A stretch of 23,908 nucleotides of DNA from a virus, in the IMG/VR virus record IMGVR_UViG_3300009786_002758, positions 1 through 23,908 of that record, one strand, 5' to 3'. The notes under the pieces were generated by a model. It worked only from the letters and a program-made list of their open reading frames with translations. It made no database searches and had not been told where the DNA came from. The position numbers and the translations under genes were made by a program. Position 1 is the stretch's first letter, and each line of letters begins with the position of its first letter. This document shows positions 13,213 to 21,438 of the stretch, one piece after another.

Positions 13213-13320
13213 TGGATCCCTCCTATACGGAGGTTTGCCGATAGATGGGCGACCGTGAAGCCCACCCCCCACCCCGGTAGAGGGAGGGATTTTCCACCGA
13301 AGAGGAGGGAGAGCTAACTT

Positions 13321-13380
13321 TGGGGCTGGAAGTTACAGATTGAGGCTGGAACTTCCAGATTGAGGCTGGAAGTTCCAGAT
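13321..13380. repeat. three tandem 20-bp iteron-like repeats
   Basis: The unit TGRGGCTGGAASTTMCAGAT occurs three times with no gap (13321-13340, 13341-13360, 13361-13380), differing at three positions only. Each contains the near-palindrome CTGGAA-S-TTCCAG (broken in copy one by an A). Another AAGTTCCAGGAT lies at about 13434-13445. Such arrays are usual binding sites for replication initiators or repressors. Confidence 0.93.
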
Positions 13381-13412: not shown

Positions 13413-13433
13413 GTAGATGAGATTTTCATCTAC
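13413..13433. other. perfect 8-bp hairpin next to the iterons
   Basis: GTAGATGA and TCATCTAC are perfectly complementary around a GATTT loop. It is AT-richer than its surroundings and lies 33 bases from the repeat array. It could be a primer or cruciform site of an origin, or an operator. Confidence 0.8.
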
Positions 13434-14037
13434 AAGTTCCAGGATTCCGCACCCCGTCAGCCTTTTCAGCCGATTATCTTCAACACGCACCCCATTTGCG
13501 GGGCCCCGTTCCTACTATCAGGATCAAGGTAGAGATTCTCATCAGTCGTTCAGTCGGCTACGCCTCCCTCTCTCCCTATACATAGGGATCTGCTGGGGGA
13601 AGGCGACCGTAGAGGGCTATCCGGAATCTAGTCCCGTGGACTCCCTCTGGGTTCCCGCTTCCTAAATGGAAGGTGGGGACACCCTGAAATATGGGTCGTT
13701 GCTCTCAAAGATCGGTTGGGAGTTCTCCCTTCAAGGGCCTCCAGGCGGGTCCATACGTCCCCGCATCCTTTCAGACTCAGTGTACATCAACGATCCTCAA
13801 AGCAGCTGGGGATCGCCTCGGCCCCTGGAACAATACCTACAAGAGGCGTGAGCCCGGGGAGTTACCACCGACACCCTCCCAAAGAAGGGAGGAGGCTGAA
13901 CATCCGTTACCATCCTGCAGGAATGTTTGCAAGCACATCATCTGCGATGGGTAGCCTATCTGGAGTGATTATTGTGTGGGCATGGAAGGACAGGTGCCCC
14001 ATAAAGCTAAGTAGAAGGCCGTGAAGGAGAAATGAAA

Positions 14038-14564: not shown

Positions 14565-14652
14565 AATAGCCCTGCGGGTGATGCTCTACATCATCGTGTC
14601 CGCATCCGTCCTGTGGTGGCTGAAGTCGGATGACTGGGACGATGGGGTCTAG
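14545..14652 (+). CDS. 35-aa single-span membrane protein
   Basis: This short frame overlaps the end of the lipoprotein gene by 20 bases. It encodes one hydrophobic segment (ALRVMLYIIVSASVLWWLK, about residues 9-27) with an acidic C-terminus (SDDWDDGV). The ribosome site is weak (GGGA). Hydrophobic pattern and coupling to the lipoprotein suggest a real gene, but its shortness leaves doubt. Its TAG shares the CTAG with the stop of the convergent 72-aa gene. Confidence 0.45.
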   Translation: MEPVHVEIALRVMLYIIVSASVLWWLKSDDWDDGV

Positions 14653-14867
14653 GGCGCTGAACTCACCTGGGCATCGCAGGATGCCCAGCACACATTCACG
14701 GCGTCGATGTCTGAAACCCTCTCCTGACACCCTGCATTCAAGAAGCAATCGTGTACTGCCAAGAGGTGGGCATCCCGCTGTGGAACCCACACCCCGAGCC
14801 ACCAAGTCGCCCCGAGGCTCAAGGACACCAACACACATGCACACGCGATTCTATCCATCCACAACAT
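14649..14867 (-). CDS. 72-aa membrane-anchored protein with four cysteines
   Basis: An N-terminal hydrophobic segment (about 6-28, IACACVLVSLSLGATWWLGVWV) is followed by a small domain with Cys41, Cys47, Cys60 and Cys64, suited to two disulfides outside the cytoplasm. The start at 14867 is backed by GGAGG 6 bases upstream and overlaps the HD-domain gene's end by 17 bases, so both share the promoter at 15397-15424. I do not recognise the family. Confidence 0.68.
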   Translation of the reverse strand: MLWMDRIACACVLVSLSLGATWWLGVWVPQRDAHLLAVHDCFLNAGCQERVSDIDAVNVCWASCDAQVSSAP

Positions 14868-15378
14868 CTTGAACCTCCAAAAGCATTTCTAAAGTACCCC
14901 ACATGGCGTCGGCCTCCCCCTCCCGGTGGAGGGCTTCCAGGAAGGATGCCTGCTCCCGCCTGTACATCTTGATGTAGCGGTCCCCTTCAAGGGCTGCCCT
15001 CGCTCTCTTCACATTGGCAATCCTGTCAGCGAGCTTCAGATGGATGGCGCCGGGAACCGTCGGGATGACCCGCATCGGGAGTGCCTTCCTTGCTGCTCTG
15101 TTCTCGCCTTCGGGGTCATCCGTGACAGCCCTGACAAGCTCTGCCACCCTGCGACCCAGGTTGCGTTCTATGTCCTCGTAGGTGGCCCGCGTGTCCTCGA
15201 GGGTGTCGTGCAGCCATCCCGCAGACATGAGAGCCTCGTCGTCCCCGTGGCCGAACCGGATGAGGATTCCTGCCACATCCTCCAGGTGGATCGAGTAGGG
15301 ATCACGACCGTACATCTGCCCTTCATGCAGATCCAGGGCCATGTCCCGGGCGCGCTCCACTTTGTTTGACTTCACCAT
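14851..15378 (-). CDS. HD-domain hydrolase resembling the (p)ppGpp hydrolase domain of SpoT/MESH1
   Basis: The 175-aa protein carries the HD pattern of alarmone hydrolases: His31 (YSIHLEDV), His57-Asp58 with Glu61-Asp62 (WLHDTLEDT), and Asp118 with Asn122 (LKLADRIANVKRAR). These match H53, H77-D78, E81-D82, D144 and N148 of the RelA/SpoT hydrolase site, and the 118-to-122 spacing is identical. VTDDPEG (85-91) also fits. There is no synthetase domain, so it resembles stand-alone MESH1-like small alarmone hydrolases. It would remove the stringent-response signal and keep the host in a growth state; other nucleotide substrates are possible. GGAGG lies 6 bases before the ATG. It has a phage-type promoter and is divergent from the sigma gene. 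Confidence 0.85.
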   Translation of the reverse strand: MVKSNKVERARDMALDLHEGQMYGRDPYSIHLEDVAGILIRFGHGDDEALMSAGWLHDTLEDTRATYEDIERNLGRRVAELVRAVTDDPEGENRAARKALPMRVIPTVPGAIHLKLADRIANVKRARAALEGDRYIKMYRREQASFLEALHREGEADAMWGTLEMLLEVQDVVDG

Positions 15379-15396
15379 GTGACACCTCCATTCATG

Positions 15397-15446: not shown

Positions 15447-15463
15447 GTATGTCTACGACATAC
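15447..15463. promoter_or_regulatory. perfect palindromic operator abutting the sigma70 -35 box
   Basis: GTATGTC and GACATAC are perfect inverted repeats separated by TAC. The right arm ends at the base before TTGACA. This spacing is typical of a site for a dimeric repressor or activator controlling the sigma gene. The binding protein is unknown. Confidence 0.7.
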
Positions 15464-15492
15464 TTGACACTTCAATATAGGGAGAATAGTAT
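15464..15492 (+). promoter_or_regulatory. canonical sigma70 promoter of the sigma-factor gene
   Basis: TTGACA (15464-15469) and TAGTAT (15487-15492) are separated by exactly 17 bases. The -35 is a perfect match and the -10 matches at five of six positions. It is the best sigma70 promoter I see in the window. It points at the sigma gene 95 bases downstream, as expected for an early gene read by host RNA polymerase. Confidence 0.85.
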
Positions 15493-15587: not shown

Positions 15588-16325
15588 ATGAGTTCGAGAC
15601 AGAAGTCCGATGTATGCCCCCCACAAAATAAAGAACACCACCGCCTGACGATCCAGTGGATCGACGACAACTGGGAATCCAAGGCGAAGCCGGCCATCAT
15701 GAAGGTGATCAGCCGGAAGATGCGGTGGGTGACTCCCGAAAGCGCGGAGGACATCGCCTCTGACCTCCTGATCAAGATTCTGGAGTCCTCGTCCATCGGA
15801 CGGTGGCTCGCTGGCGGTAACACCGTATCCCCGTGGGAACTCGCCAACTGGGCATACCAGGATCTCCTCGATGACTTGGAGAAGCAGGCGCAGGACGGCT
15901 CATGTAGAGGCCAGAACCCCGCCCTCCGAACCCGATCCGAACGCAAGGCCGTGACCGATCACGGATCCTCAGCCCGACCCATTCATTCAACCCCTGCACC
16001 GTTCAAGGAGCACCGCTCCTATGACGAGGACGGAACAGTCTCCTCGAAGGACATCGAGGATCAGTCGGATGATGCCCTGTCCATCCTCTTGATGAAGGAA
16101 GTGGAGGCAGCCCACATGGCGGCGATCCGCACTGGGTTCCCGCAGGGGACTGAAAGGATGAAGACCCTTTACCAGTTGCTCCGGGAGGACAAGGTGCGGT
16201 CGGAAATCGCCCCCCTCCTCGGCGTATCGAAGTCGAGGTGTGCCACCCTCGTCCAGAACCTCCGCTGGTGTCTACGCCACGGACCCGACGAGATGCGCAG
16301 GCTCCGTAAGCATTACGGGCAGTGA
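15588..16325 (+). CDS. ECF-like RNA polymerase sigma factor
   Basis: The 245-aa protein has the two-domain plan of extracytoplasmic-function sigma factors. Residues about 20-100 resemble region 2: TPESAEDIASDLLIKILES (49-67) parallels the AEDIVQEVFLRL core-binding helix, and SPWELANWAYQDLLDDLEKQ (81-100) parallels the -10-recognition helix. A disordered linker (about 101-160) follows. Residues 162-230 resemble region 4, with a helix-turn-helix DKVRSEIAPLLGVSKSRCATLVQNLRWCLR (201-230) that would contact the -35 box. No regions 1.1 or 3 are seen. The start has GAAGGAG 7 bases upstream. The promoter is sigma70-type, while most other units carry an ECF-like motif, so this protein is the prime candidate reader of that motif. 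A DNA-binding regulator without sigma activity is the main alternative. Confidence 0.78.
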   Translation: MSSRQKSDVCPPQNKEHHRLTIQWIDDNWESKAKPAIMKVISRKMRWVTPESAEDIASDLLIKILESSSIGRWLAGGNTVSPWELANWAYQDLLDDLEKQAQDGSCRGQNPALRTRSERKAVTDHGSSARPIHSTPAPFKEHRSYDEDGTVSSKDIEDQSDDALSILLMKEVEAAHMAAIRTGFPQGTERMKTLYQLLREDKVRSEIAPLLGVSKSRCATLVQNLRWCLRHGPDEMRRLRKHYGQ

Positions 16326-19624: not shown

Positions 19625-20941
19625 ATGAAAAGAAGACCATCACCATCAAGGGTCGCAGCACGCAAGCTGGCGGGCACCTACTTGAACCCTGCGGCCAAGG
19701 CATCCACCCTTGAAGGTGCTACAGGGGCATCGAAGGGCACCTGGTCGAACAGCTCCAATCCGCTCAAGGCTGCTATGCGCTCGGGGGATTTGCCTCCGGG
19801 GCTCCACCCCTCTTGGATGGATCCCCGAGGAAAGGGACCTATCACCAGCGATACAGTCCGAGCTCTGGATGCCATACTCTCGGGTCACCCGACGCTGGCG
19901 GGATCCGATCTCGCAACTGACATGTGGATGTCAGGATGGTTCTGGGACTTCGGCAAGAAGTTCGCCGCCAAGATAGGGGACGGCAGCCTTGAGGTCTCCA
20001 ACCTCGGCCGCGCATTCTCCCGGTTTTCCCAACGGCGGGCCAAGGGAGAGAAACGGGATGATGCATCCCGTCGCCGCAAACTCGATGAATCCTCGGGTGA
20101 GGTCCAGGATCAGGCCATGGGGTTCAATGGCGGTCCTGTTGATCTAGAGGATGCCATCCAACTCTCGTGGGGTACGCCCCTCGGTCTAAAGTTGAAGTCA
20201 TGGCTCCAGTCATCCATTCAGGATCTCCGCACGGAGAAACAGCAGCGGTCCATGGAGGCATGGCTTGATGCTCTACAAGGTAAGGGTGCCAATCAACGGG
20301 GTGCCTTCAGTGAAGCCGCAAAGAAGCTCACGGATGCGGGGTTCCCGATGTCCCGCAAGGGCGTTGAGAAGGCCGTGAATAAAGGGATCGAACAGTTGGC
20401 CCAGAAAGCGGACAGTGATCGTGAGCTCAAGGACATCCTTGAGGACATCTCCGACAAGTTCCTCGGGTATGCGGAAACCCAGAAAATCCCGGCCCAGAAA
20501 AAGAAAGCTGCAAGGAGCGTCGAGATCCACGATGTGGATTGGATGTCGGGGCAGGAGCCCCAAGATGACCTCGACGATGATTTCGGGCTGAGCCTCGAGC
20601 TGGAGTTCACCGTCACGGGCAAGTTCCTCTCGGGACTTCTCGGGGTCCAGGAGAGGGTGCTTCAGGCAACCCTCCAGAACCTCGACCGGCGCCAAGCTCT
20701 CGGGCGACTCGGCGGATCGGCCACCGCAAGGCGGATGGTCCAGCAGATCCTCCAGAAGGCGCGGGGCGATGTCGAAGCCCTTGTGAACCTCTATGCCTAC
20801 GATGAGTTCGGCCACGGGGCCAAGGTTGTCTCGCTCGAGCTGTCGGACAATGACTCCCGCTGGGATGTGAAGATCGACCCCCGCAGCGAGAAGATCCGGT
20901 ACACGGTCGAGTTGGCGGGAATCGGCGAATGGATCGGGTAG
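19625..20941 (+). CDS. unknown 438-aa protein
   Basis: I do not recognise this protein. The N-terminus is basic (MKRRPSPSRVAARKLAGTYLNP). The middle is helical and charged (LGLKLKSWLQSSIQDLRTEKQQRSMEAWLDAL, then a lysine-rich run to about 295). An acidic patch (PQDDLDDDFG) separates a C-terminal domain with a beta-strand end (GAKVVSLELSDNDSRWDVKIDP). No enzyme motif is seen. AGGAG lies 7 bases before the ATG. The stop is 13 bases inside the Nudix gene, so the two are co-translated. An RVAAR-like segment also occurs near the N-terminus of the 144-aa protein (QRVAQR). A structural or DNA-binding role is possible but not shown. Confidence 0.85.
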   Translation: MKRRPSPSRVAARKLAGTYLNPAAKASTLEGATGASKGTWSNSSNPLKAAMRSGDLPPGLHPSWMDPRGKGPITSDTVRALDAILSGHPTLAGSDLATDMWMSGWFWDFGKKFAAKIGDGSLEVSNLGRAFSRFSQRRAKGEKRDDASRRRKLDESSGEVQDQAMGFNGGPVDLEDAIQLSWGTPLGLKLKSWLQSSIQDLRTEKQQRSMEAWLDALQGKGANQRGAFSEAAKKLTDAGFPMSRKGVEKAVNKGIEQLAQKADSDRELKDILEDISDKFLGYAETQKIPAQKKKAARSVEIHDVDWMSGQEPQDDLDDDFGLSLELEFTVTGKFLSGLLGVQERVLQATLQNLDRRQALGRLGGSATARRMVQQILQKARGDVEALVNLYAYDEFGHGAKVVSLELSDNDSRWDVKIDPRSEKIRYTVELAGIGEWIG

Positions 20942-21438
20942 GAAGATACGAGAAGCTCAAGCAACCCGGCGGTGGGCCCCTTGAGGAGGTCGAACCCGTC
21001 GATTTCCCTTTCGGTGGGATCTACCAAGGCCCCCGGTTCGCTGATGCGGCGGGTCTCCTGTTCACCTCTGATGGGAGGATCCTCCTCGCACTGAGGGCCG
21101 GCGGGCAGGCCCGGCAAGGGACGTGGGCCCTCCCGGGCGGATGGGTGGAGGAGGGGGAGACACCCCTCCAAGCCGCCGTGAGGGAATCACAGGAGGAGCT
21201 CGGCATCCGACTCTCGCGGGGTTCCCTGTTCCTCAAGAACTGCAAGATACGATGGCACGGCGTTCTCTACATCGCCTGGCTCACCAGGACCCCCGTGGCC
21301 TTCCGCCCCCGCCTCGACCACTCCGAGCACACCCAGTACAGATGGTTCCTTCCTGGGGACCTCGCTGGCCGCCGCCTCCACGAGGGGGCCGAAGATGTCA
21401 TCGCACAGCTCGCCCCAGAGTTTCTCGAGGGCCGTTGA
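20929..21438 (+). CDS. Nudix hydrolase
   Basis: The 169-aa protein contains a complete Nudix box: G71-x5-E77-x7-R85-E86-x2-E89-E90-x-G92 (GWVEEGE...RESQEELG), which binds the metal and hydrolyses nucleoside diphosphate derivatives. TWALPGG just before it is typical. Substrates could be oxidised dNTPs, nucleotide sugars, NAD derivatives or capped RNA; the sequence does not decide. In T4, NudE plays a comparable supporting role. The start overlaps the 438-aa gene by 13 bases. Confidence 0.93.
   Translation: MDRVGRYEKLKQPGGGPLEEVEPVDFPFGGIYQGPRFADAAGLLFTSDGRILLALRAGGQARQGTWALPGGWVEEGETPLQAAVRESQEELGIRLSRGSLFLKNCKIRWHGVLYIAWLTRTPVAFRPRLDHSEHTQYRWFLPGDLAGRRLHEGAEDVIAQLAPEFLEGR

Follow-up and report, generated by a model that had tools for sequence, protein, structure and literature searches.

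A QxYG-type single-domain small alarmone hydrolase encoded on a viral sequence record

Within a viral sequence of 23,908 nucleotides (IMG/VR record IMGVR_UViG_3300009786_002758; the whole analysed stretch is called the window below), a short open reading frame next to a sigma-like gene resembles the hydrolase part of RelA/SpoT proteins. This locus raises the question of whether the frame indeed belongs to the alarmone hydrolases, whether it is connected to a sigma switch, and which nucleotide its product could act on during infection. Small alarmone hydrolases (SAHs) have the HD hydrolase domain known from RelA/SpoT proteins but no synthetase domain. The features of the locus are listed in Table 1.

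Table 1. Annotated features around the hydrolase gene (positions refer to the window).
Feature	Position	Strand	Remarks
Small alarmone hydrolase (SAH), "QxYG" type	14851..15378	-	RSH HD domain only; 175 aa, ATG-to-stop
Shine-Dalgarno sequence GGAGGT	15384..15389	-	5 nt 5' of the SAH ATG; read from the sequence
Small protein with a single hydrophobic segment and several conserved cysteines	14649..14867	-	Shares 17 nt with the 3' end of the SAH gene
Sigma-like gene (region 2 / region 4-like)	15588..16325	+	Divergent from the SAH, 209 bp away
Sigma-70-like promoter match TTGACA-17-TAGTAT	15464..15492	+	Points to the sigma-like gene, away from the SAH
Perfect 7+3+7 palindrome GTATGTC-TAC-GACATAC	15447..15463	.	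Immediately precedes the sigma-like gene's -35-like hexamer

A single-domain member of the RelA/SpoT superfamily

The reading frame encodes a single-domain SAH of the RelA/SpoT superfamily. Comparison with Pfam returned HD_4 (PF13328; E 8.4e-10, 39 bits with a cut-off of 27.2), NCBIfam returned spoT_relA over residues 12-125 (3.6e-16, far under the full-length cut-off, as expected for a single domain), and the best PHROGs assignment was PHROG_990, "metal-dependent phosphohydrolase" (7.5e-32). A single-sequence search of the PDB placed human MESH1 first (2e-11), the best matches being MESH1 and Rel/SpoT proteins. Using a profile of ten phage proteins of the same type as the window SAH, the P. 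aeruginosa SAH was the best PDB match (6yvc, 6.5e-25), followed by MESH1, Rel/SpoT, C. glutamicum RelH (7qoc) and Aph1 (7smg), with hardly any other HD enzymes. The AlphaFold2 model, based on 50 sequences, reached a mean pLDDT of 94.8, and its top 49 Foldseek matches in the PDB were all RSH/SAH hydrolase domains; the first HD protein outside this group was YpgQ with an E-value of 0.02.

The assignment to the alarmone hydrolases proposed in the initial annotation was thus confirmed consistently by Pfam, NCBIfam, PDB sequence, profile and fold searches, and RSH/SAH enzymes ranked ahead of other HD families throughout. Given the Pfam, NCBIfam, PHROGs and PDB matches and the presence of the named active-site residues, the family identity lies far above chance. 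Other HD families (nucleotidases, dNTPases, PDEs) were considered for the window SAH and gave no competitive match in the Pfam, PDB profile or fold searches. The predicted lack of a synthetase domain holds as well: only HD families were at or near the Pfam cut-off, no further family exceeded it, and 175 aa leave no room for such a domain.

All residues of the SpoT/MESH1 HD site that had been named for this protein are in place (H31, H57, D58, E61, D62, D118 and N122). Among 70 sequences of the window SAH type, H57, D58, D62, D118 and N122 are kept in every one, while H31 and E61 are kept in 69/70 each, the lone exception for H31 being a gap in a truncated row. Strong conservation was likewise observed for R94, K115, Y139 and E142 in the SAH alignment (96 phage and viral proteins), and the orthologue in a related virus, L181, retains the catalytic residues at 49% identity.

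Gene surroundings and the sigma-like neighbour

A scan with the class II ribonucleotide reductase yielded 11 virus records that carry the replication block of the window. One of these relatives has a size of 435,804 bp, which makes it probable that the window represents part of a larger phage genome.

The initial annotation had linked the hydrolase to a sigma switch. Its divergent orientation to the neighbouring gene is present in the window, and a sigma identity of this neighbour is plausible. A single-sequence scan with the sigma-like gene retrieved no homologues; these were found only via related viruses, namely in L209 (E 6e-8), L200 (E 1e-4) and, marginally, L256 (E 0.009). One homologue showed weak matches to Sigma70_r2 (E 5e-4) and r4_2, and the first PDB matches of the low-confidence structural model were nearly all sigma factors, none of them significant. 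The proposed link itself did not hold up in other genomes. L209 and L256 encode the sigma-like gene with no adjacent SAH, the L200 record (435 kb) carries the SAH at 146.6 kb and the sigma-like gene at ~64 kb, i.e. ~82 kb apart, and the SAH of L181 has no sigma neighbour. Since the two genes are unpaired in these four records, a sigma link would be local to the window genome.

A "phage-type promoter" of the hydrolase gene could not be substantiated either, as the lone promoter-like match lies on the opposite strand; the number of sigma-70-like matches (one found, 1.4 expected) is not above chance. Two copies of the T7-promoter-like string TATAGGGAGA were found in the window, at 15476-15485(+) and 13571-13580(-), and none in the 11 relatives; no shared promoter word stood out. 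The palindrome is present as a single copy in the window and is a possible operator.

Compared to the sigma-like gene, the small membrane-protein gene overlapping the SAH 3' end is the better-conserved partner. In L181, the closest relative, its homologue (37% in tblastn, L181:6181(-)) is an ORF that again overlaps the SAH ORF, and a homologue of p14268 lies beyond it. Divergent from the L181 SAH lie, in place of a sigma-like gene, two ORFs of 93 and 139 aa and one that is phosphoesterase-like.

Among the window proteins scanned, neither a toxic alarmone synthetase next to the SAH, as a toxSAS antitoxin would have, nor a CCA-enzyme, RNA-ligase or NAD gene was detected, and both the tRNA gene search and the Rfam search of the window were empty. 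Elsewhere in the window, a tandem repeat of TTGAGGCTGGAAGTTCCAGAT (13320-13380; three copies of 20 nt, palindromic in their cores) edges a ~600-nt stretch (13430-14030) showing no clear genes and no Rfam match. Furthermore, positions 20929-21438(+) encode a Nudix hydrolase; some Nudix enzymes act on alarmones, too.

Motif types and relatives of the hydrolase

SAHs are already established as a kind of phage protein, and the window gene adds a member of the QxYG type, which is common among phages and is represented, for example, in the cultured Caulobacter phage phiCbK. Homologues were found in 414 annotated phage records and in at least 421 IMG/VR stretches; the IMG/VR relatives came from an alignment-based scan, while a scan with the single window sequence retrieved none. 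According to the residues around their PY motif, the phage SAHs sort into three types. Type 1 shows R-K-Y-[TS]-x-x-P-Y-x-x-H-P, with R-K as in SpoT/MESH1, and includes the SSU5 protein; type 2 shows D-K-A/G-G and comprises Aph1 (7smg), proteins of two phages and PVP-SE1 gp220; type 3, to which the window SAH belongs, shows Q-x-Y-[GD]-x-x-P-Y-x-x-H-L. The base-contact motif of the window SAH has diverged: the R-K (HD1) that precedes PYxxHP is absent from this protein (MYGRDPYSIHL) and from its type, and D-K-A-G, used here as the mark of the Aph1 family because it is present in 7smg and in phage Aph1 proteins, is missing from the type too, the window SAH having M-Y-G-R.

In a tree of 112 rows, in which some branches are long, the bootstrap did not converge and support is modest, the window SAH groups with L017/L018/L019 (100/92), the R-K phage type groups with SpoT/Rel/MESH1 (83/85), and the P. 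aeruginosa SAH and Aph1 fall among rows of the window type. Bacterial members of the QxYG type were found in Flavobacterium, Chryseobacterium, Nocardia and one Cytophagales genome. Alarmone synthetases were analysed in seven bacterial genomes with such members: five showed a single full match, alone or with an additional fragment, and a second synthetase was present in two Flavobacterium genomes. As most of these genomes contain the housekeeping synthetase only, no toxin partner is indicated for this type.

Among characterised proteins, the P. aeruginosa SAH (PDB 6yvc, 6z3n) is the nearest solved structure to the window type by profile. It shares the single HD domain, the lack of R-K, the PYxxHL motif and the catalytic residues, but is encoded by a bacterial chromosomal gene, sits on a long tree branch (2.33) and shows ~26% identity on the model. 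The MESH1/SpoT hydrolase domains (3nr1, 3nqw, 5vxa, 7qpr) match the window SAH in fold (TM 0.76-0.81 for MESH1) and in their catalytic residues, whereas R-K precedes their PY motif. The SAH of Salmonella phage SSU5 (PaSpo) is phage-encoded and single-domain like that of the window, but of the R-K type (QKRKYTGEDYINHP) and placed in a separate tree cluster. The Aph1 (p)ppApp hydrolases (7smg; Pasteurella/Aggregatibacter phages) and PVP-SE1 gp220 are also HD-only proteins, several of them phage- or prophage-encoded, and differ from the window SAH by their D-K-A/G-G motif, shorter length and weaker structural match (TM 0.58). Finally, Pakpunaviruses encode SAHs as well (PaAdele_032 of phage Adele; phage K5 in L013), and the K5 protein has QxYG, but identity to the window SAH is ~30% and both phage lineage and neighbouring genes are different. 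PaAdele_032 was published as a small alarmone hydrolase with no substrate preference assigned (PMC12846349).

Several observations on other phage SAHs were made along with this comparison. In Caulobacter phages Ccr29 and Ccr32 and Brevundimonas phage Bajun, for example, SAH genes are annotated as "GTP pyrophosphokinase", i.e. as synthetase, in ORFs with room for a hydrolase domain only. One 12-kb phage stretch (L094) carries three distinct HD_4-type genes, one R-K and two D-K-G-G. In L076:2-6697(+), the SAH domain is part of a large polyvalent protein of >2200 aa (LPD38), in which "EQFSRA" spacers recur and one stretch looks ADP-ribosyltransferase-like; this protein is possibly injected together with the DNA.

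Candidate substrates and role during infection

We propose, with a probability of about 0.78, that the window gene encodes a single-domain SAH that removes a 3'-pyrophosphate from a purine ribonucleotide and so reverses a host alarm or defence mark during infection. RSH hydrolases bind one Mn2+ by two His and two Asp ligands and use it to activate water with the help of an ED pair, which leads to removal of the 3'-pyrophosphate. In the window SAH, one Mn2+ would most likely be bound through H31, H57, D58 and D118, while E61/D62 would activate the water, and the enzyme would strip the 3'-pyrophosphate off its purine ribonucleotide substrate. The target could be an alarmone, (p)ppGpp or (p)ppApp, or else a 3'-pyrophosphate attached to tRNA CCA ends by toxic alarmone synthetases, and translation and nucleotide pools might in this way remain usable for the phage. 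An effect on the host polymerase, which the initial annotation had also envisaged, can only be conjectured. Deciding between the stringent response, damaged tRNA and toxic (p)ppApp as the target of large phages would give a function to a gene commonly annotated as "metal-dependent phosphohydrolase" or, misleadingly, "GTP pyrophosphokinase".

Hydrolysis of (p)ppGpp, blunting the host stringent response, is a quite possible form of this proposal. It agrees with MESH1 and Rel/SpoT as the best single-sequence PDB matches, with the NCBIfam match to spoT_relA, and with the P. aeruginosa SAH, for which the title of a paper cited in PMC12846349 reports degradation of (p)ppApp along with (p)ppGpp. On the other hand, the R-K motif of SpoT/MESH1 is missing, and the tree places SpoT/MESH1/Rel with another phage type, at a support of only 83/85. 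The P. aeruginosa SAH lacks this motif as well, so ppGpp activity may occur without it. Because that enzyme is reported to accept both alarmones and the residues setting base choice are not settled (PMC7644958), the substrate of the window SAH is not readable from its sequence.

Counter-defence acting on adenosine 3'-pyrophosphates, either (p)ppApp or the tRNA end, is likewise possible, with odds of the order of one in three, and is suggested by the grouping of the window type with the P. aeruginosa SAH and Aph1. Our literature search found experiments for two phage SAHs, both from Salmonella phages: the SSU5 enzyme takes off the modification that FaRel2 puts on tRNA (PMC11559606), and the SSU5 and PVP-SE1 enzymes relieve FaRel toxicity (PMC7644958). 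As both belong to non-QxYG motif types, their activities are not directly transferable to the window SAH. In a 1272-aa phage ORF, L082:2817-6632(+), also found in L110, an SAH domain is fused with the head domain and the RNA-binding domain of a CCA-adding/poly(A) polymerase (PolyA_pol 1.2e-35, HD_4 8e-16); the product is possibly a tRNA-end repair protein, but its SAH domain belongs to the R-K type. L017, a close relative, carries a CCA-enzyme gene ~2.6 kb away from its SAH; overall, CCA enzymes were present in 15/50 SAH phages and 11/50 RNR phages, no clear excess, and their proximity to the SAH gave P 0.06. An RNA ligase (PF09414) was found within 6 kb of the SAH in 10/25 of the IMG/VR records of L017-L094 (expected 3.3), a significant excess at face value, which dropped to a borderline 5/17 (expected 2.25, P 0.05; range P 0.05-0.10) once related phages were collapsed. 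The window itself shows none of these tRNA-related genes among the proteins and searches described above. By analogy, the SSU5 and PVP-SE1 results and the SAH fusions possibly point to tRNA or (p)ppApp, albeit from other motif types and with weak neighbourhood statistics. It appears rather doubtful that the QxYG SAHs found in large phages make up a third class next to the R-K and D-K-x-G ones, specialised for adenosine 3'-pyrophosphates (chiefly the 3'-pyrophosphorylated tRNA CCA end) instead of ppGpp and serving as a general counter-defence against toxic alarmone synthetases; if they do, tRNA end repair of this kind would show most plainly in the natural fusion of a phage SAH with a CCA-adding enzyme.

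An improbable alternative to 3'-pyrophosphate removal as a counter to host alarm is that the window SAH acts chiefly on NADP(H) or another nucleotide and tunes cofactor pools, as reported for MESH1 and the Xanthomonas SAH. The X. campestris SAH hydrolyses NADPH, but the kinetic table of the same study shows this bacterial SAH to be ~1000 times weaker on NADPH than on alarmones (PMC9765508). Ranked by TM-score, the top PDB match of the SAH model is the complex of MESH1 with NADPH. In some phages the SAH lies near NAMPT/NMNAT genes, and NAMPT occurs within 6 kb of it in 4/13 records (expected 0.97, P 0.01, uncorrected for relatedness), yet it is at chance within 3 kb, and the window proteins scanned include no NAD gene. 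With the RNA-ligase signal borderline after collapsing and several families and distances tried, such proximities do not constitute firm support. A neutral passenger or catalytically dead regulator is very improbable. The SAH is patchy among the 11 replication-block relatives, with strong matches in G008 and G010 only and weaker ones in G013 and G016, many of these records being incomplete; against this reading, the full active site is retained across ~50% divergence, the ribosome-binding site is good and the overlapping gene pair is conserved.

Further observations concern the neighbourhood of SAH genes in other phages. In L046:5744-6798, the SAH stands beside a tRNA array and is followed immediately downstream by a tmRNA, and in L088:7321-12509 it stands beside a cluster of >30 tRNAs. 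Around the SAHs of L017/L018 (L267, L268), a motif resembling MKITKRQLRRIIKE recurs at the N-terminus of several small ORFs and is perhaps a common packaging or targeting signal.
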